From Parascardovia denticolens DSM 10105 = JCM 12538 (GTDB taxonomy: Bacteria > Actinomycetota > Actinomycetes > Actinomycetales > Bifidobacteriaceae), in assembly GCF_001042675.1 (NCBI RefSeq), contig NZ_AP012333.1, positions 930,001 through 994,000 on the forward strand: DNA of 64,000 nt, written 5' to 3'. How positions within the stretch are numbered: the first letter of the stretch is position 1; each line of letters begins with the position of its first letter. Below the pieces are notes generated by a model, which was given only the letters and a program-made list of their open reading frames with translations, was not told where the DNA came from and ran no database searches. Positions 8,648-36,052 of this stretch are shown here, piece by piece. Both the position numbers and the translations under genes were made by a program.

Positions 8648-10103
8648 AAGCGCTGAGATAACCGGCGTTGACCAGGCCGGTCTTGATATTGGAGGCGGAA
8701 ATGGTCAGCAAGGTGGGGGAGAAGAGCCGGGAGGAGGGAGAGACGGTTCCCCGGGCCAAGCCGAGGCAATAGGCGCTCAGACGGGCGATGAAGGCCTTGC
8801 GGTCCACCATGGCGGTCGACCATTGTTTCCCGTCTACTAGGTGAGGCAGGTTCAGGGGGTAAGTGCCGTAGCCGACGATCAGAGGCCAGTGGGGGTAATC
8901 GGCAACCTCGGTCCTTTCGTCCGCGCGGGTGGCTGGATCGGGAACCGGCTTGCGGCGGACGGTCGTTCCTCCGGACAAGTTGGTGATGACCCCGGAGATC
9001 GAAATCTGAGGATTGATGTCGGCGCTGGACCCGGTATATCCGGCCTCGTTCAATCCTTCGATGGCCCCTTGACACAAGAGGTCGTTCGCGGCCAGGACTC
9101 CGTTGATCCGGACATGGGCGGATGAGCCCGCAGCCGGTCGCAGCCGGTCCTTCAAAGCCTGGGCTATGGTCTGCTTGTTTCCCGCGTTCACCGTCACTGT
9201 CCGCCAGTCTTTCGCTCCGCTGGAGGCGGTCAGGAGGCCGGAGGGGCTGTAGATGGCCCCGGACCGGTAATAGGGCCCCAAGACGGACCAAATACCGGAG
9301 AAAAGGTCTCGGGTGAAACGGTTGTCTTCCAGAAGAGGCAGGAGGATCTCCACGCTTTGCCGATTCGTCCGGCTGGCTTTGGCCAACGCCAGTTTCGAAG
9401 CCAGGCCCCGGGCTTGGGCCCGGCCGATTTGATAGGCGGTCAGGAGAGTGACGGTCTGGTCCGCCTTGAATCCGGGCAGGGCCGAGGAATCCCCCAGCAG
9501 GAGGACGGTGAAGCCGTCCTTCCTGGCCTGACGGAGGCTGGATGTCAAAGCGGCGGCGGATTCCTTGTCCTCCTGGCTGTTTTCCGTTGTCTTGGCTGAA
9601 GAAACCCCGCTCGGGGCCAGGGCGGCCATCGGGCTGAATTGTTGGGCGACCTGATCGGGCCGATAGGCCGGCGACAGAATCAGGATCTTGCGGGCCGCGG
9701 AAGACGGAGCCTCCTTGGTCTTCGCCAGGTAGGAGTCCACTGAGGCTGACTGGTCCTTCAGATTGGAGGATCGATGGGTGCTGACTTCGACCTTTCTCCG
9801 GTCCTTTCCCCCATTTTCCTGGTTCAGGGCCTTGTCCAAGTCGGTCGTGAAATTATCCCAGTTGTTCAAAGGGCGATTGGAAGTCACCGCTTCCACGGAG
9901 ATGGGGGAGGAGGGGGTGAAGACGCCGATTTCGGCTGTGGTCGTCTTGGCTGGTGACGGGGCCTCGCATGCGGCGGAACCGATCAGGAGCATGAAGGCCC
10001 CGAAGGCGCACAAGGACCTGGTCCACAGGGACTTAGTCCATAAGGACCGGTTGAGCGCTCCGGAACGGTCAGCGGCTCTTCGCTGTGATGACTGACGTGG
10101 CAT
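8631..10103 (-). CDS. Putative lipoprotein with solute-binding (type 1 periplasmic-binding-like) fold
   Basis: 490 residues. A basic N-terminus and hydrophobic segment (about residues 31-45) end in GSAAC, so C46 is the likely lipidation site. The -3 residue is serine, so the lipobox is not ideal. The mature part alternates alpha/beta segments and 'ILILSPAYRP' and 'VLLLGDS' strands like sugar-binding type 1 periplasmic proteins. It has segments similar to ligand-dependent 'NGVLAANDLLCQGAIEGL' in that fold. The N-terminus contains a repeated S-L-W-T-K/R unit. No ABC permease or regulator is adjacent, so it is an orphan and a sensor or scavenging role is possible. The start is supported by AGGAGGG before ATG. 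No firm family assignment. Confidence 0.75.
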   Translation of the reverse strand: MPRQSSQRRAADRSGALNRSLWTKSLWTRSLCAFGAFMLLIGSAACEAPSPAKTTTAEIGVFTPSSPISVEAVTSNRPLNNWDNFTTDLDKALNQENGGKDRRKVEVSTHRSSNLKDQSASVDSYLAKTKEAPSSAARKILILSPAYRPDQVAQQFSPMAALAPSGVSSAKTTENSQEDKESAAALTSSLRQARKDGFTVLLLGDSSALPGFKADQTVTLLTAYQIGRAQARGLASKLALAKASRTNRQSVEILLPLLEDNRFTRDLFSGIWSVLGPYYRSGAIYSPSGLLTASSGAKDWRTVTVNAGNKQTIAQALKDRLRPAAGSSAHVRINGVLAANDLLCQGAIEGLNEAGYTGSSADINPQISISGVITNLSGGTTVRRKPVPDPATRADERTEVADYPHWPLIVGYGTYPLNLPHLVDGKQWSTAMVDRKAFIARLSAYCLGLARGTVSPSSRLFSPTLLTISASNIKTGLVNAGYLSASQAGL

Positions 10104-27173: not shown

Positions 27174-27521
27174 TCACTCGTAATCCGGAATCCACCCATC
27201 CTCATGCATCTTCAGGCGCTTCTTGAGCAATTCAGACAACTCTTCTTCCGTCCGCCTTTCCATGAGCATGTCCCAATGGGTCCGTTGCGGCTTCGAGCCG
27301 TTTTCGTCGGCGACGTCATCGACATCCTCCCGATGAGCGATCTGACCGCACCGGCATTCCCAAGATTCCGGAGCCTCCACGTCGGCGGACAGAGGAAGGA
27401 TCGTCCTGTGGCCTTGCGGGCACACATAAGTCACATCCTTGCGGGCCGCGAAATCGACGTTGTCGTCCGACTCCAAGGATTTCGCCCCGATACTCATGCC
27501 TCGAAGAGAACGTTCTGCCAT
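27174..27521 (-). CDS. rbpA: RNA polymerase-binding protein RbpA
   Basis: 115-residue actinobacterial transcription activator that binds the principal sigma factor and stabilises the open promoter complex. The N-terminal tail 'LRGMSIGAKSLESD' is as expected. A core domain has C/H residues ('CPQGH', 'CRCG') that could bind zinc. A basic linker leads to the sigma-interaction segment 'RTHWDMLMERR'. Start at ATG 27521 is set by GGAGG (27527-27531); the longer frame is upstream sequence. It faces the merR gene, with a 140-bp gap holding no obvious terminator. Confidence 0.93.
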   Translation of the reverse strand: MAERSLRGMSIGAKSLESDDNVDFAARKDVTYVCPQGHRTILPLSADVEAPESWECRCGQIAHREDVDDVADENGSKPQRTHWDMLMERRTEEELSELLKKRLKMHEDGWIPDYE

Positions 27522-27554
27522 GTTTACCTCCTGAAGTATCTTTCCCACTTTACT

Positions 27555-27715: not shown

Positions 27716-30616
27716 TCATTCCTCATCGATTCCGCTATAGGCCACGATCCCTTTATTCACTAGGGCCGCAGCCTCATGGGCGACCTCCGCTGTACGGGAA
27801 TCCGGGAGGAAATCGCCCACGGTGGAGATCTGAGTGAGGATATCGACCGTCCGTTTGCAATTCCGTACGAAATCCCCACCAGTCAGATCGGAATCCCGAA
27901 GGATGTTGGTCAAAGGCTTGTCGGTCACCCAGTTGAACATGATTTCGCTTAGGCCGAAATCGATGTCAGGCAAGGAGTCGGTCCCATAATCCTCACACAG
28001 TCCGTTGATTTCCTGGAAAGTTCGCAGGACCTGGTAGGCGGTCTGGGCCAGTCTCCCCTTTTCCCCTCCGGGGAAATGCCGAGGCATGCCGGTAGAGGAC
28101 CCGCGCCGGGGTTCATAGACGAAGGCGGAAGCCACCGAAGCCATCTCTTCGGCGGTCAAGGAGTCCAGGGTCCCCTCATGCAGGACCTGGGCCAAAACGA
28201 TATCCTTCTCGCTGTAAATCCGGCGCAGGAGCTGCCCTGATTCGGTCAAACGGTAGCTCGGCTGGTCGGAATGACCGGCTCTGGCCCTATTTTCCGCTTC
28301 GCTTGTCTCGTTTTCCTCGCTTGTCGCATTCACCTCGTCCGTGATGTTCATCTCGTTCACATCCTCAATGTAATCAAGCATGCTCAAGATGGAACAGAGA
28401 CGGTCGAACTGCCGGGAGACGGTTCCGGTGCGGGAATTGTACCGTTCTTCCAAACGGTCCAGCTCTTTGAGCAGACGGCCCCATTTATAACCGATCCGCA
28501 GATGGGAGTCGAGGTCCGGGCAGGAACGGCAGGGATGCTCTTTCTCCTGTTTCTTCAAATCAGCGATGCGGGCGTCCAGGTCGGCGAAGGCGCGCTTCCT
28601 GGCCTTCTCATTCGCGAACCGCTGGTGTTTCAGCTGCCTTCTACCCGACCGCTCCAAGTCGGTCAGAGCCAGGCGGATCCGCATGAAGTCGGCGAAATCC
28701 CCATAATCGCAGGCGAAGTCCTTCTCATACCCCTCCAAGGTCTGGCGCGAGGTCTGAATCTGCGCATCCAGGTTCTTAGCGGAAAGGGTGGCCTCCCACT
28801 GGGCGAAGGAATGGTCCAAGGTCCGTCGGGCGGTCTGCAGATCATAGCGGTTCAGGAGGTTGACGGCCATGTTGAAGGTGGGAGCGAAGCTGGAATGCAA
28901 GGGATAGACGCGCTTGGAGGCCAGGGCCAAGGCGGTCTGAGGCAGGAAGCCAGGATGATCCACGATGACCGAATAGCCCACCGGATCGATTCCCCTGCGA
29001 CCGGCCCGGCCCGTCAACTGGGTGAACTCCCCCGGAGACAAAGTCTCGTGACTGACCCCGTTGAATTTTTCCAGCTTCTCCACGACCACGCTTCTGGCCG
29101 GCATATTGATCCCCAAGGCCAAGGTCTCGGTGGCGAAGACGACCTTCAAAAGGCCTTGTTCGAAGAGCTTTTCGACGATCTGGCGGTAGAGGGTGATCAT
29201 CCCGGCATGGTGTGGGGCTATCCCCTCTTCCAAGGCATGGCGGAAATCAGCGAAACGAAGGGCTTTCTTATCGTCGGCAGTCAGCTGCCCATAAGCCATG
29301 GAATCGACGATCTGGCGGATCTCTTGGGCTTCCTCGCGGGAGGTAAGGGACAATCCAGCCTGCATGCATTGGGAGACGGCCTGGTCGCAACCGTTACGGG
29401 AGAAGATGAAATAGATGCCGGGCAAGAGGCCGAGGAAGTCCAGCTCATCGACCACGGCCCACCACCGAGGTGTATGGTGACCGGCGTCTGCGGAAGATGT
29501 CGGCATCTTCCCTCCACCTCTGTTCCCATGTCGGCCTTTCAAACCTTTGCGGCCATAAGCCCCGACTTTGTTCTTTCCCCGGCCAGGGGCCTGATGGGAG
29601 AAAGTCTGGCGCTGGGCCTTCCGTTCAAGCTGGTCCAAGGCGACGATGAGCTGGGGATTGACTTTGGCCCCCTTCCCCACTTCCTGATCGTCCTGGTAGA
29701 GGTCGAAAAGCCGGGGCTCCTTCCTATCGGACTCCTGTAGCATGACTTCCTGGATGAGGGGGACCGGGCGTTTCTCTGAGACGATCAGGCTGGTCTTCCC
29801 CCTGACCGATTGGATCCAATTCGCGAAGTCCTCGACGTTGGAGACGGTTGCGGACAGGCCCACGACCTTCACGTCCTTGGGCAGGTGGATGATCACCTCT
29901 TCCCAGACCTGGCCCCGCATGCGGTCGGCCAGGTAATGCACCTCATCCAGGATGACGTAACGCAAGGCCGTCAGGGTGGTTGACCCTTCGTAAAGCATGT
30001 TCCGCAGGACTTCCGTCGTCATGACCACGATGTCCGCTTCCGAGTTGATGGACATGTCCCCGGTCAGAAGCCCCACCTTGTCCGGTCCGTAGATCCTGAC
30101 CAGGTCATGGTATTTCTGGTTGCTCAAAGCCTTAATGGGAGTTGTGTAGAAGGCTTTGACGTTGCCTTGCCGGGCCAGGTAGATGGCGAAATCGGCGATG
30201 ATCGTCTTGCCCGCCCCGGTGGGAGCGGCCACCAGGACGTTATTGCCGGCTTCGAGTTCGGTCAGGGCCCGCCGTTGGAACTTATCCAGGTCGAAATCCA
30301 AAGACTCTTCATACAGGTGGGCCAGGTACCCGGTTCCTGATGAAGTGGGTGAACTGGCAGAATCGGATGAACTTGTAGACGAACCGGCCTGTGAGTCCTT
30401 TCGTGAGACTCTTCCTAAGCCTGTCTGCCGGTCTTGGTCAGAGACCTGGGATTTTGAGGTCCGTCGGGATTTCCCCCTGCTATAGGCCTGGAAACGCTGG
30501 GCCGGAGTCAATTGATCCCTGTCTTCGGATTCCCATCGGTATTCGATCAAGGCCTCGTTTTCGGACGCCTCTTTTGCCCGGTCGGCGGCTTGCCTATGAC
30601 GCCAATGTTTACTCAT
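27716..30616 (-). CDS. helY: DEAD/DEAH-box (Ski2/Mtr4-like) helicase HelY
   Basis: 966-residue superfamily 2 RNA helicase. A disordered serine-rich N-terminus (to about residue 100) precedes Walker A 'APTGAGKT' (about 129-136), the 'TTPIKALSNQKY' motif Ia, the DEVH box in 'VILDEVHYLADR' and 'GLSATVSN' motif III. The C-terminal helicase half ends with 'QLTGRAGRRGIDPVG' (motif VI). Accessory helical regions follow, as in actinobacterial HelY. It is the last gene of the pafBC operon and overlaps the preceding stop as ATGA. AGGACAGG precedes the ATG. Confidence 0.94.
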   Translation of the reverse strand: MSKHWRHRQAADRAKEASENEALIEYRWESEDRDQLTPAQRFQAYSRGKSRRTSKSQVSDQDRQTGLGRVSRKDSQAGSSTSSSDSASSPTSSGTGYLAHLYEESLDFDLDKFQRRALTELEAGNNVLVAAPTGAGKTIIADFAIYLARQGNVKAFYTTPIKALSNQKYHDLVRIYGPDKVGLLTGDMSINSEADIVVMTTEVLRNMLYEGSTTLTALRYVILDEVHYLADRMRGQVWEEVIIHLPKDVKVVGLSATVSNVEDFANWIQSVRGKTSLIVSEKRPVPLIQEVMLQESDRKEPRLFDLYQDDQEVGKGAKVNPQLIVALDQLERKAQRQTFSHQAPGRGKNKVGAYGRKGLKGRHGNRGGGKMPTSSADAGHHTPRWWAVVDELDFLGLLPGIYFIFSRNGCDQAVSQCMQAGLSLTSREEAQEIRQIVDSMAYGQLTADDKKALRFADFRHALEEGIAPHHAGMITLYRQIVEKLFEQGLLKVVFATETLALGINMPARSVVVEKLEKFNGVSHETLSPGEFTQLTGRAGRRGIDPVGYSVIVDHPGFLPQTALALASKRVYPLHSSFAPTFNMAVNLLNRYDLQTARRTLDHSFAQWEATLSAKNLDAQIQTSRQTLEGYEKDFACDYGDFADFMRIRLALTDLERSGRRQLKHQRFANEKARKRAFADLDARIADLKKQEKEHPCRSCPDLDSHLRIGYKWGRLLKELDRLEERYNSRTGTVSRQFDRLCSILSMLDYIEDVNEMNITDEVNATSEENETSEAENRARAGHSDQPSYRLTESGQLLRRIYSEKDIVLAQVLHEGTLDSLTAEEMASVASAFVYEPRRGSSTGMPRHFPGGEKGRLAQTAYQVLRTFQEINGLCEDYGTDSLPDIDFGLSEIMFNWVTDKPLTNILRDSDLTGGDFVRNCKRTVDILTQISTVGDFLPDSRTAEVAHEAAALVNKGIVAYSGIDEE

Positions 30617-31752
30617 ATCCTGTCCTTATGGCGGCCGTCGGTCTGGACGCCGTCCTTTTGATTCTTTTCGGGGTCATCAAGACCAAGAGGAAAAAGGATA
30701 CGCACGGCTCTCGGCCGGCAGCTGACTCTGACGGGCAGACGGCCTATCATCTCCCCATCCCCCATGAGATCAGGGGGTTCGGTCCCGCGACCGCTGGCCG
30801 CTATCGTCACCGCCTTCACCCGCTTCCAGCCGATCAACCGGTCCTGGATGTGCAGTCCCTTGTAGCCTCTGAGCAAGGTCCTGATGGCCTGCAGGGGGCT
30901 GGGCGTCCATTTGGTCAAAACCAGATCCAGGTGGCCGTCTTGCAAGGAGGAATAAGGCGAAATCCTGATTCCGCTGCTTATACACTGTGCGTTGGAAATC
31001 AAAAGGAGGGGGGTCTCCGGGGAAAGGGTCGCCGGCTTATCCGGCCCGTCCTCGGTCCCGCCCGCGTCCAGACCAAGGCGGAAACCGTAAGCCAGGGGAT
31101 GGCTGGCTTCCGAGACCCCCGCTTGGACGTAACGCAAAGGCCCCCACGGCAGGGGTGAACGATTGGCCCTTTGATTGATGGCGGCGTCGATGGAGCAGCT
31201 CAGGGAGCCAGCCACGTAGACGGTTCGTTGGCCGCCCACTCGCTCGGTGGAAGCGGTGGATACGTTGGAAGCTTTGGAAGCGCCGAAAGCGTCTGAAGCG
31301 CCCGAGTCGGAAGGAAGGGGATCGACGGCGAGCAGGTCCACGGGGAGGATGGACCGCTGCATCCAGGCCTCCAAAAGGAGGTCGACGCTGGTTTCGATTT
31401 CGTGGATGGGTAGGCCCAATCCGCGGGCGAAATCGTTATCGGACCCGCAAGCGATGATGCCCACAGGCAGGTCGCTGCCGGACAAGGCGTTGGCAGCTAT
31501 ATGGACGATCCCGTCTCCCCCGGCCACGAGGAGAAGATCGAGGTCAGGCAGGGCGGAACGGACCAGATCTAAAGAGGTGGCCGCATCAGGGGCTGAGAGG
31601 ACCCGCAGACGATAGCCCAGCTCTTTGGTCTTTTTCCGGAGGAGAGTGATGATGCGCTCGTCGGCCTTGCGTCCTTTTCCCAAGTCCGAGGCAGGGTTAG
31701 TCAGCAGCCCGAGGCGGACTCCCCCCGGCTTTTTCGTTCTGGCCTGCCTCAC
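30613..31752 (-). CDS. Diacylglycerol kinase-like lipid kinase
   Basis: 379-residue member of the DAG/sphingosine lipid-kinase family (DagK/YegS-like). The catalytic-domain elements are 'NPASDLGKGR' (residues 19-28), the nucleotide-binding 'VAGGDGIVHIAANAL' and 'GIIACGSDNDFARGLGLP'. The second domain has an insertion rich in S and A (about 150-185). Likely role: phosphorylating diacylglycerol or a related lipid so that it re-enters phospholipid synthesis. The start is GTG at 31752, sharing one base with the preceding stop; its own stop overlaps the helicase start. This gene sits where tatC is found in the mycobacterial pafB-pafC-tatA-tatC-helY locus. Confidence 0.85.
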   Translation of the reverse strand: MRQARTKKPGGVRLGLLTNPASDLGKGRKADERIITLLRKKTKELGYRLRVLSAPDAATSLDLVRSALPDLDLLLVAGGDGIVHIAANALSGSDLPVGIIACGSDNDFARGLGLPIHEIETSVDLLLEAWMQRSILPVDLLAVDPLPSDSGASDAFGASKASNVSTASTERVGGQRTVYVAGSLSCSIDAAINQRANRSPLPWGPLRYVQAGVSEASHPLAYGFRLGLDAGGTEDGPDKPATLSPETPLLLISNAQCISSGIRISPYSSLQDGHLDLVLTKWTPSPLQAIRTLLRGYKGLHIQDRLIGWKRVKAVTIAASGRGTEPPDLMGDGEMIGRLPVRVSCRPRAVRILFPLGLDDPEKNQKDGVQTDGRHKDRI

Positions 31753-32135
31753 TAGTCGTTCTCGTCAAGGAGGTCTTCGGCCGGAATTCCCAGCTTTTGC
31801 CCGAGCCCGTTGATGGTCTTCTTATCCGTCTCGGCCCAGCTGTCCCAGGTGGCGCGGTGACGCTGGGAGCGGCGCCGTTTGCCTTCCAAGACCTCTTCGT
31901 GGGCTTTGGAATAAACGTCGGCGCTCGCTTTGATCGGTTTGGCAAAAGCGGGGACCCGGTCCCTGTCCAGGAGCTCCCCCTTCTCCGTCATCTTGGCGAC
32001 CCGTACCTGGATGTCGTCGGCCGTCTTTGAAATCCCCGTCATGGCTTTTTTGGCATGGAGGAAGGCGTAAATCAATCCCAGGATGAAGACGATCAAGGCC
32101 GCGACGATCAGGATGGCCCATCCCCAGCCCGGCAT
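31752..32135 (-). CDS. Small single-span membrane protein of unknown family
   Basis: 127 residues: 'MPGWGWAILIVAALIVFILG' begins a single membrane helix (about residues 5-27). A helical, charged cytoplasmic region ('KTADDIQVRVAKMTEKGELL') follows, with a lysine/arginine-rich patch ('GKRRRSQRHRATWDSW') and an acidic end. It occupies the tatA position of the locus and shares the short N-terminal helix plus amphipathic layout. However, it lacks the F-G hinge and other TatA residues, so I do not call it TatA. The start overlaps the pafBC stop (TGATG) and the stop overlaps the next GTG, so it is translationally coupled on both sides. Confidence 0.8.
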   Translation of the reverse strand: MPGWGWAILIVAALIVFILGLIYAFLHAKKAMTGISKTADDIQVRVAKMTEKGELLDRDRVPAFAKPIKASADVYSKAHEEVLEGKRRRSQRHRATWDSWAETDKKTINGLGQKLGIPAEDLLDEND

Positions 32136-34102
32136 CAGCGCCTCCTCCGATGACCTTCGGACCGCTTGGAATCGGCCTCTTCCTGTTGATTGATATGGGT
32201 GAGCTCCCGATCGGCTCGGGCCGTGATCATGGACCGCAGAGTCTCCGGCCCCACAGCGCTGATATGGCGGGCGTGGGCGATGCAGAAGGCCACGAACCAG
32301 GAGTCGGACGAGATGATCAGATGGACCTTTTGGCCGTGATCGGTGTCTTCGACCGTGGCCCCCGGAAGGCTCTTGATAAAAGGCATCCCCTTCTGATTGG
32401 TCAGGAAGACGGCTTCGGTCCCGTTCTCGAAGTTCCATTCGCGCAAGTCGGACAGGGGGACTTCCGGAACGTCGATGTGATGGCTGGGCTCGACCGTCTC
32501 CACCTTGCCGATGCGGGAAAGACGGAGGGTCTGCCAGTTCTGTGACTTGGAATTGCGGCGTTTGCGGACAGGGGCCTGATCCTCTTCATCGATGGGGTCC
32601 TCGGCCGGGACCTTCCGGTCCTTCTCCCCCACCCCGGTCCAGGCGGCCAGGTAGTAGACACCTTCATCCACGAAGACTTTCGCCGGGGCGACCAGACGGC
32701 GGCGGGTGCGGCCGGACCCATCGGTATATTCCATGTCCAGCAGCTGGTCGTGTTCAATGGCGTGCTTGATGATTGGGAAGCAGGCGGGGGCCAGCTCGAA
32801 ACCGGTCAGGCTCAGCCAGGGGGTCTGACCGGGTTTGGAATACTCATAGAGCCGATTATAGAGATCCATGGCCTGCTTGCGGTCGATGTCCGGCATGAGG
32901 GGGGAATGGGCCAGGTAGCTGACGGAAGCGGTCAGCATGCTCATATATTGGGGTGAAACCCCTGCCAGGCGTTCCAGACCCAAAGAATTGGTGGCGCTGA
33001 CGATGCCTTCGTCTTCCAGCAGGGGCCAGTCGATCTCGAAGAACTGGCTTCCGGCCACTTCCCCATCGTCGGAGACGGTGGTCAAAGTGCCGATGTCCTT
33101 GCGCAGGGTGTTGACGTTGCGCCGTTCCTCTTCCGGGGTGCGGGCGGGGCCGATGAAGCGGTCCGCCAGCTCGGTCAGGGAATACTCCTCCCCCAGATGG
33201 GCGGAAAGGAAAAGCATGAGGTGGAGGCGGCGATCAACTTCGCTCCCGGTCTGGACCGTCGGTTGCTTCTTCGGCAGCTCGTCATCGGTCTGAAGGAGTT
33301 CGGAGACGGAGATCACCGGAACGTCGGAAGCGGGGATGGCCTTGTCGGAGACGGACAAGTCGGCCAATTCGAATGCTTTAGCGGCATTCAAACGACGTTT
33401 GTATGCCTCACGGGCTTCGACTGGTTCCAGAATTCGGGAGCCGGGATGATCCAAGACATAGGAAGCCAGGTCATCCGAGTCAGTATAGGCCACATTGATG
33501 TTCTCGCCTTCGAATTCCACGGTGGCGGCGAACCGACGGGAGTCCACGATATTGGTGAGGACTTCGGGGATCTTCTGGGTCCCCAGGCCGGGGGCGATGG
33601 AATCCAAGCCCAATCCCGGGGTCGGGGTCTGGGCCAGGCGTGGGGTGCTCCGGCTCTTGTGCTGGCTGTCTTTCGCCCGCTGGATGTTCTCCTGCTCATT
33701 GGCCGCGATGGACCGGGCCAGATAGTTGGCGGCCGCCAAGAGGGGCATGTCTTCCGTCTGGAATTGGGTCATGACCCGGGGCTCATCCCCCAGCTGGAGA
33801 CGATAGGAAGCGAAATCCTGGCCTTCCGACTTGGAGGAATATTCCGGCTGCCGGGATTCGATGGCGATGCCCATGGCCGTCAGCTTGGCCCGGTCACGTT
33901 GGAATTGCTTGGCGAAGGCAGCCTTAGCCGCCTGATCCGCCAGCTCGCCGTATGAATCGGCATAAGCCTTCACTCGCTGGGCGATTTGCCGCGAGGTAAG
34001 CCACTGGGGAAAAGCAGATGACAGGACGGCCAGTACGTCGAGCTCGTGCTTCCCCCACTTATCGGAAAATCGACGCCTACCGTTCGTAGATCCTTCAGCC
34101 AT
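32135..34102 (-). CDS. pafBC: Fused PafB-PafC transcriptional regulator (two WYL modules)
   Basis: 655 residues containing two tandem copies of helix-turn-helix plus WYL domain, which in mycobacteria are separate proteins PafB and PafC. The first winged helix ('LTSRQIAQRVKAYADSYG') is near residues 35-55. The second ('EYSLTELADRFIGPARTPEE') is at about 300-320. The second WYL core has 'GVYYLAAWTG' near 484. PafBC activates the LexA-independent DNA-damage regulon. The start chosen is ATG 34102 (GAGG 4 nt upstream). GTG 34219 would add 39 residues but lies immediately after the AAGGA. It heads the operon pafBC-membrane protein-DAG kinase-helY. Confidence 0.88.
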   Translation of the reverse strand: MAEGSTNGRRRFSDKWGKHELDVLAVLSSAFPQWLTSRQIAQRVKAYADSYGELADQAAKAAFAKQFQRDRAKLTAMGIAIESRQPEYSSKSEGQDFASYRLQLGDEPRVMTQFQTEDMPLLAAANYLARSIAANEQENIQRAKDSQHKSRSTPRLAQTPTPGLGLDSIAPGLGTQKIPEVLTNIVDSRRFAATVEFEGENINVAYTDSDDLASYVLDHPGSRILEPVEAREAYKRRLNAAKAFELADLSVSDKAIPASDVPVISVSELLQTDDELPKKQPTVQTGSEVDRRLHLMLFLSAHLGEEYSLTELADRFIGPARTPEEERRNVNTLRKDIGTLTTVSDDGEVAGSQFFEIDWPLLEDEGIVSATNSLGLERLAGVSPQYMSMLTASVSYLAHSPLMPDIDRKQAMDLYNRLYEYSKPGQTPWLSLTGFELAPACFPIIKHAIEHDQLLDMEYTDGSGRTRRRLVAPAKVFVDEGVYYLAAWTGVGEKDRKVPAEDPIDEEDQAPVRKRRNSKSQNWQTLRLSRIGKVETVEPSHHIDVPEVPLSDLREWNFENGTEAVFLTNQKGMPFIKSLPGATVEDTDHGQKVHLIISSDSWFVAFCIAHARHISAVGPETLRSMITARADRELTHINQQEEADSKRSEGHRRRR

Positions 34103-34354: not shown

Positions 34355-35782
34355 TTATTGCCAGGAATCCGATTCGATTCCTTGCGGCCCCACGAAAGAC
34401 CCATTGGGGACGTAGGAAGGCCGTCCCATGTCGGATAGGTGGGCGTCGGCGAAACAACGCACATCCCGTCCGAAAGTCCAATCCCCCTCGACCGTGAAGG
34501 AATTCGCAGCCGCCAAGGAAGGGACCGAGTAGGGGAAACGCTCGTCGAAATCATCGATGTTCTTGTAGAAGCGGGGGTCCAGATTGATGTCGGGAAAGAT
34601 GTAGTTGCCGTCCTCCATCTCGAAGGCGTCGGTCAGATGGAAGCGGTCGGAGCGGAGGATGACCAGGTCGTTGGTCGTCTTGACGGGGAGGAAACGGGAC
34701 CGGCTCACTTCCACGCAGACGGCGTCATCGAACAAAGAGATGGCCGCTGCCATGGCCGTCTCCAGCTGGATCACATGCTGGGTGGACGAATCGGTCGGGT
34801 CGACCGTCTTCGAATTGCGGATGACCGGCAAAGGAAGGACTCCCTTGTGCTTCTTCAGGAGCTTCTTCAGGGCGCTGATGCGGACCCAGAGGTTGTTGGT
34901 GTTGAAATAAGGATGCACGTTGACATCGGTGGCCACATCCTTATCGTCCGGGTGTACCTGGGTCATCTCCCGCAGCATGAGGCGGCCGCTCTTCTTATCG
35001 CGGACCAGCTGACCGCCTTTGCGGTCGGCGTCGGTCTTCTTTGCCACCTCGATCATGAAGGAGGCCCCGGATTGGGCGAAGGCCCCGGAGACGGTGCTGG
35101 ACGGCCGGGCCCCCAGGTTGTCGGAATTGGAGATGAAAAGATACTCCATCCCCTCGTTCTGCAGGACGTCCAAAAGGCCGGATTCCCATAAGGAGCTGAA
35201 AACGCTGCCATGCCCGGGGGGGCACCATTCCAGGTCGGGGTTCTTCACGAAAGAGACCGGCATACCGGAGGCGTTGACGATCTTGGGCTCGCGGCTTTGA
35301 AGGATCTCCACGGGGATCTCGTCCTGATGGAAATTGCGGTTCCGCCGGATACGGGCCAGGGAGTCCTTGGAAGTCCGATAGGAGTCCATGAAGGTCAGGG
35401 GGAGCTTCACCCCCTGCTGCTGGCGGACGGTGGTTACCTGTCCTAGGATGATGTCCAGGAAATTCATCTGCCGGGCTTTGTGCCGACGGACGGGCAGAAG
35501 GGATTTGGCCCCTTGCAGGCCCATGGAGGTCCCCAATCCCCCATTCAATTTGAGCATGGCCGTCTTGGCTAAGGCCTTGCTGGCCGTCTTCGCGTTGATG
35601 GTGTCGTGAATCTCACCGATATGACGGATATGATCGACCGGTTCGACATCCGATTCGCGAATCCACTCTGATTCGTCTTCCTGCCAGATGTCATAGAGCC
35701 TCTTGAACTGTTCGATGGCGAAATCGCTCATATCGTTGTCGCGCATTTTCTGCGCCGAGGCTTCAAAGGCGTTGTTGTCCAT
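34355..35782 (-). CDS. UTP--glucose-1-phosphate uridylyltransferase (UGP2 type)
   Basis: 475-residue eukaryote-like UDP-glucose pyrophosphorylase (PF01704 type), the form used by bifidobacteria in galactose and lacto-N-biose metabolism. It makes UDP-glucose from UTP and glucose 1-phosphate. The nucleotide-binding loop 'LNGGLGTSMGLQGAK' starts at residue 79. 'FISNSDNLGA' and the sugar-binding 'NNLWVRISAL' region follow. The start at ATG 35782 is preceded by AAAGG and lies 38 nt after the predicted transcription start. It is monocistronic, with promoter at 35828-35856. Confidence 0.94.
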   Translation of the reverse strand: MDNNAFEASAQKMRDNDMSDFAIEQFKRLYDIWQEDESEWIRESDVEPVDHIRHIGEIHDTINAKTASKALAKTAMLKLNGGLGTSMGLQGAKSLLPVRRHKARQMNFLDIILGQVTTVRQQQGVKLPLTFMDSYRTSKDSLARIRRNRNFHQDEIPVEILQSREPKIVNASGMPVSFVKNPDLEWCPPGHGSVFSSLWESGLLDVLQNEGMEYLFISNSDNLGARPSSTVSGAFAQSGASFMIEVAKKTDADRKGGQLVRDKKSGRLMLREMTQVHPDDKDVATDVNVHPYFNTNNLWVRISALKKLLKKHKGVLPLPVIRNSKTVDPTDSSTQHVIQLETAMAAAISLFDDAVCVEVSRSRFLPVKTTNDLVILRSDRFHLTDAFEMEDGNYIFPDINLDPRFYKNIDDFDERFPYSVPSLAAANSFTVEGDWTFGRDVRCFADAHLSDMGRPSYVPNGSFVGPQGIESDSWQ

Positions 35783-36052
35783 GAAAGAACCTTTCGTGGC
35801 TGGGAGCTTCCCGGCCAAACCGTCATCATTCTAGCGGAAAAACAAGCTGAAGGCAAAAAACAACACCGCTTTTGTCCGTTTTCCCTCTCTGCTTTTGCCC
35901 CGCCCGGTCCGCATGACCCTGCAGGCGCCTGACGCTCCGCTATGAGGAGCGCTGAGAACACTCAGGAAAACCACTCAGAGGCTGCCAAGGGCCGCAGGGG
36001 GCGCCAAGGAAGGCTTGGCGAATCAAGCAGGAGGGGAGAATAAGGGAGAAAA
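35783..36052. other. Gene-free stretch upstream of the uridylyltransferase gene
   Basis: Contains the minus-strand promoter described below and a 7-bp hairpin (CGCCAAG / CTTGGCG, 36002-36020) with no T-run. I see nothing else in it. Confidence 0.5.
35828..35856 (-). promoter_or_regulatory. Promoter of the uridylyltransferase gene
   Basis: On the minus strand TTGCCT (35856-35851) is followed after exactly 17 bp by TAGAAT (35833-35828), 45 nt before the start codon. Confidence 0.65.

Follow-up and report, generated by a model that had tools for sequence, protein, structure and literature searches.

The Bifidobacteriaceae, a family of commensals of humans and animals, have as a whole kept the DNA-binding end of the regulator PafBC almost intact and dropped its sensor domain and known target sites. 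As judged from profiles and alignments, the PafB WYL domain (WYL-B) and part of the WCX domain are missing from PafBC throughout the Bifidobacteriaceae tested. In mycobacteria, PafBC is the principal DNA-damage activator and serves as a sensor of single-stranded DNA (ssDNA). We consider it probable (about 0.6) that the bifidobacterial protein has been rewired to another signal and another class of promoter, and that control of repair through ssDNA at WYL-B has been given up. The family offers a natural experiment for assigning functions to the parts of PafBC, and points to a new PafBC regulon.

The window analyzed is a stretch of 64,000 nucleotides from the genome of Parascardovia denticolens DSM 10105, a single contig of 1.89 Mb. 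Comparisons draw on a survey of 122 loci, taken as HelY- or X-centered regions of up to 18 kb (X being the 127-residue protein encoded next to pafBC) from bifidobacteria and a wide range of other families within the order and class, oriented by HelY and then searched with profiles. The 42 bifidobacterial loci count two species twice (Alloscardovia L061/L062 are the same as L098/L099), and a HelY search of one contig set contributed only two useful loci, both from Alloscardovia.

Domain architecture of the fused PafBC

The first-pass annotation had described four overlapping genes, headed by a fusion of PafB and PafC in one 655-residue protein, and both descriptions hold. All four lie on the reverse strand, where pafBC (32135..34102) overlaps X by 1 bp, X overlaps the kinase gene by 1 bp, and the latter overlaps helY by 4 bp. 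The ATG start of pafBC at 34102 is backed by a conserved MAEG...GRRRFSDKW, although a longer GTG open reading frame is also present. In HHalign comparisons the N-terminal half matched PafB (E=1e-9) and the C-terminal half PafC (E=5.9e-21), with both types of helix-turn-helix (HTH) region in order and the PafB HTH at approximately residues 9-110; Pfam recognized WYL (5.4e-8), WCX just below cut-off and, weakly, HTH_PafC. Upstream of pafBC lies a gene of UTP-glucose-1-phosphate uridylyltransferase type (34355-35818), as it does in the small genomes examined.

PafBC is syntenic with helY in the gene-order survey, and both its profile and its position (beside X, dagK, and helY in relatives) identify it as the ortholog of mycobacterial PafBC and of the fused Arthrobacter protein (6SJ9), with which it shares two HTH regions, the PafC WYL-WCX unit and part of the PafB WCX. 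The fusion is recurrent and already published, having been described in Arthrobacter, Kocuria, and Thermobifida (PMC6789036); it also occurs in several other families of the survey, from which 17 fused loci were examined. One part that sets the bifidobacterial proteins apart from mycobacterial PafBC and 6SJ9, and that the first-pass annotation did not pick up, is the PafB half. Aligned with the fused PafBC of relatives, they have no counterpart to the PafB WYL domain, and when their N-terminal halves were compared with PafB by HHalign, the HTH and the end of WCX were covered and columns ~160-275 were bridged. In place of the missing WYL domain stands a short stretch peculiar to the family, GLGLDSIAPGLGTQ (residues 163-176), and the site from which this domain and the first half of WCX are lacking maps to 33539..33631 (reverse strand). 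Only the second half of the PafB WCX aligns, by HHalign and weakly to residues 276-328 of 6SJ9; this remnant covers approximately residues 201-245 (33368..33502, reverse strand).

A profile of the WYL domain was trained on unfused PafB and PafC alone, so that fused proteins and bifidobacterial C-halves lay outside its training set; it matched none of 42 bifidobacterial N-halves and all 42 C-halves. Its controls, 45/45 separate PafB and 35/35 PafC, were mostly training sequences. Fused PafBC from outside the family carried two WYL domains in 17/17 cases, whereas bifidobacterial fused PafBC carried one in 42 of 43 proteins and none in the other. Five loci of another family (f50) in the same taxonomic order still encode the PafB WYL domain. 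The bifidobacterial protein with no WYL match (L102:5533-7443), in which the PafC WYL domain is degenerate too, is encoded beside a deleted helY.

With a pLDDT of 39.8, the AlphaFold prediction for PafBC (AF2 from three sequences) is of too low a quality for folds to be compared, so the case for domain loss is one of sequence comparison. A phmmer search of PafBC against the PDB gave no match, and a profile from the three sequences retrieved 6SJ9 at E=0.54 only, on the HTH and the WCX remnant.

Constraint on PafBC and loss of its promoter motif

PafBC is present in 41/41 good bifidobacterial genomes, including those of 0.6-0.9 Mb. Across 41 bifidobacterial proteins its residues 9-110 are 98% identical, compared with 34-83% elsewhere. 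Constraint on synonymous sites was considered as a cause and ruled out by codon entropy, which in the conserved N-terminus is 1.84 bits against 1.58-1.76 elsewhere, and thus not lower; since synonymous codons are free, the constraint acts on the protein. The recognition helix reads FAKQFQRDR in 42/42 bifidobacteria and mostly F.RMFERDK in relatives; with it, the PafC HTH region also differs from that of mycobacterial PafBC and 6SJ9.

A further difference from those systems is that the canonical promoter motif has gone from bifidobacterial genomes and from recA. We take this motif to be the RecA-NDp consensus TGTCRGTG-N8-TANNNT (Gamulin et al. 2004; Muller et al. 2018); its enrichment in relatives validates the letters. 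Counted exactly in whole genomes against the reversed pattern as control, it was 19-fold enriched in 20 relatives (285 versus 15) and not enriched in 20 bifidobacteria (9 versus 21). Upstream of recA it occurred, with up to two mismatches, in 26/29 relatives versus 0/30 bifidobacteria (Fisher 9e-14), while a LexA box at the same tolerance was found there in 27/29 relatives and 26/30 bifidobacteria, which implies that bifidobacteria depend on LexA for recA. A loose two-mismatch promoter scan of the window's own genome (121 versus 123 in the control) is uninformative alone, and footprinting of the regions upstream of pafBC revealed no common motif. Loss of the consensus could reflect drift of the site and not loss of repair control.

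In mycobacteria, ssDNA is the activating signal of PafBC and the PafB WYL domain is essential for binding it: PafB WYL mutants lose ssDNA binding entirely and PafC WYL mutants do not (PMC11804915). The rewiring that we propose would date to the stem of Bifidobacteriaceae. PafBC would still serve RNA polymerase as a sigma adaptor, yet ssDNA bound at WYL-B would no longer make it switch on DNA repair; the protein may be constitutive, or driven through its one remaining WYL domain. Its changed DNA-reading helix would direct it to a different class of promoter, another regulon would hold the HTH nearly constant, and recA would be left to LexA. In its most specific form, to which we give somewhat less than an even chance, bifidobacterial PafBC is a sigma adaptor that does not report DNA damage, responds to some other signal or to none, and serves a new class of promoters whose importance would account for the near-invariant first 110 residues and for survival in genomes of 0.6-0.9 Mb. 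A literature search found no paper tying Bifidobacterium to PafBC function.

The strongest competing explanation, though we regard it as unlikely, is that PafBC remains an ssDNA-activated damage activator in which the PafC WYL domain senses and the promoter site has drifted along with the altered recognition helix. The sole WYL domain kept (approximately residues 441-535; 32498..32782, reverse strand) has both arginines, within LRLSRI, in most bifidobacterial members and could bind ssDNA alone, and both the very strong constraint on the HTH and the alteration of the recognition helix in every bifidobacterial member would fit this account. The Caulobacter regulator DriD, a homodimeric WYL activator that binds one ssDNA per WYL domain (PMC11804915), demonstrates that ssDNA can be used in another way by regulators of the WYL type; it is, however, not a fused PafBC, and in bifidobacteria one WYL domain per fused chain would be available to bind ssDNA. 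The mycobacterial mutants speak against such an account, as those of the PafC WYL domain bind ssDNA normally, and so does the retained domain itself, which at 59% ranks low in conservation among the folded parts of bifidobacterial PafBC and gave no match in L102.

The membrane protein X

X (31752..32135, reverse strand; 127 residues) has an N-terminal single span and a basic helical tail. It had been reported as a single-span protein without a recognized family, and this description stands: neither Pfam nor NCBIfam assigned it to a family (best match DUF948, E=0.011), TatA profiles did not match it, and it adjoins pafC in all bifidobacterial loci surveyed. AF2 predicted for X alone, from a three-sequence alignment (pLDDT 70.7), two helices at residues 4-51 and 66-115. 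In homologs, too, a hydrophobic helix at the N-terminus is followed by a second helix and then a basic tail. An alignment of 30 members conserves W and L in the transmembrane segment, along with an RR-rich region that has a W after it. Bifidobacterial X and the X of relatives were joined by HHalign at 98% probability; a phylum-wide search with X alone, in a sample mostly of other classes, found nothing beyond its own genome. At six further loci (L168, L173, L174, L176, L179, and L184) single-span open reading frames of 57-108 aa lie between pafC and tatA, and these are probably X orthologs missed by the profile.

That X might be a strongly diverged TatA or TatB left behind after the loss of TatC is very improbable. 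The two share an N-terminal transmembrane segment followed by a helix and a charged tail, an X profile weakly matched TatA in the PDB (E=2e-4), and HHalign related bifidobacterial X to actinobacterial TatA at 59% over 46 columns. Against this, X stands beside a genuine TatA in 32 relatives, no open reading frame was matched by both the X and the TatA profiles, the X of relatives reached only 8% with actinobacterial TatA in HHalign, none of the 30 X members matched TatA in Pfam, and these members have no Pfam family in common. X also lacks the FG hinge and has no TatC partner in its own genome. In three genomes of 0.6-0.9 Mb (L306, L308 at 8993-9241, and L309) the tail of X persists as a soluble protein without the transmembrane segment, so that at least these three contradict the idea that X had been lost from the smallest genomes. 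We infer that X was inherited and that it is an accessory protein, in most cases anchored in the membrane, for which no specific role is supported; it would at most be an accessory of the neighboring regulator or polymerase machinery. It represents an overlooked family beside pafC in many actinobacteria, independent of Tat.

Gene order and the loss of tatA-tatC

The cluster had been read as remodeled, with X in the tatA slot and a lipid kinase in the tatC slot. This placement is contradicted by the survey, in which X lies 5' of tatA and the kinase gene 3' of tatC. The order pafB-pafC-X-tatA-tatC-dagK-helY was found in 17 relatives, and others lacked X, the kinase or both. Because X and the kinase flank tatA-tatC in these 17 relatives, both are ancestral neighbors that were inherited, and it is tatA-tatC that was lost: the bifidobacterial cluster is the ancestral actinobacterial pafBC-X-(tatA-tatC)-dagK-helY, like it in gene content and order except that tatA-tatC has been deleted and rbpA adjoins helY or X. 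Profile searches found neither TatA nor TatC in the window's own genome, and TatC was also missing from 14 other bifidobacteria searched. Published surveys likewise report Bifidobacteriaceae, except B. longum, to be without tatC (PMC3827258, PMC4472781). Three other families have the cluster without tatA-tatC, with tatC elsewhere or missing and X mostly kept.

Bifidobacterial loci were arranged as pafBC-X-helY-rbpA (n=30) or pafBC-X-dagK-helY-rbpA (n=12). The first-pass annotation had gone on to suggest a tightly coupled functional module, and the proposal of a dedicated new unit in place of Tat, made up of the regulator, the membrane protein, the lipid kinase and the helicase, can be given next to no weight, because the overlaps and the constant place of X beside pafC are outweighed by the ancestral proximity of X and the kinase to tatA-tatC, the absence of the kinase from 30/42 bifidobacterial loci, the loss of HelY in some cases where PafBC persists in the genome, and the other families in which tatC moved or vanished while X stayed.

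The kinase gene, dagK (30613..31752, reverse strand, GTG start), encodes a lipid kinase of YegS/Rv2252 type whose retention is patchy. Its annotation as a diacylglycerol-kinase-like enzyme is borne out by the DAGK_cat (3.9e-19) and YegS_C (7.1e-23) domains of Pfam, which it shares with the Rv2252/YegS lipid kinases; unlike them, it falls below the NCBIfam cut-offs and has GGDGI in place of GGDGT, a motif that is also varied in one relative (GGDGM in L164). HelY (27716..30616, reverse strand) has the DEAD helicase core and the DSHCT domain in Pfam, and helY was not found in some bifidobacterial genomes of 0.6-0.9 Mb that keep PafBC.

The mycobacterial complex of PafBC with RNA polymerase contains RbpA. 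Immediately 3' of helY in Bifidobacteriaceae lies a gene (27174..27548, reverse strand), passed over in the first-pass annotation, that we presume from its sequence to be rbpA, with homologs recovered by profile, and where helY has been deleted rbpA directly follows X (L102:7806-8156; L308:9295-9642). At one locus of the survey (L106), a 120-aa cysteine-rich, zinc-ribbon-like protein is encoded between pafC and X, approximately 1.7 kb upstream of helY; gaps of ~500 bp in other relatives suggest that such a protein is common at this position.
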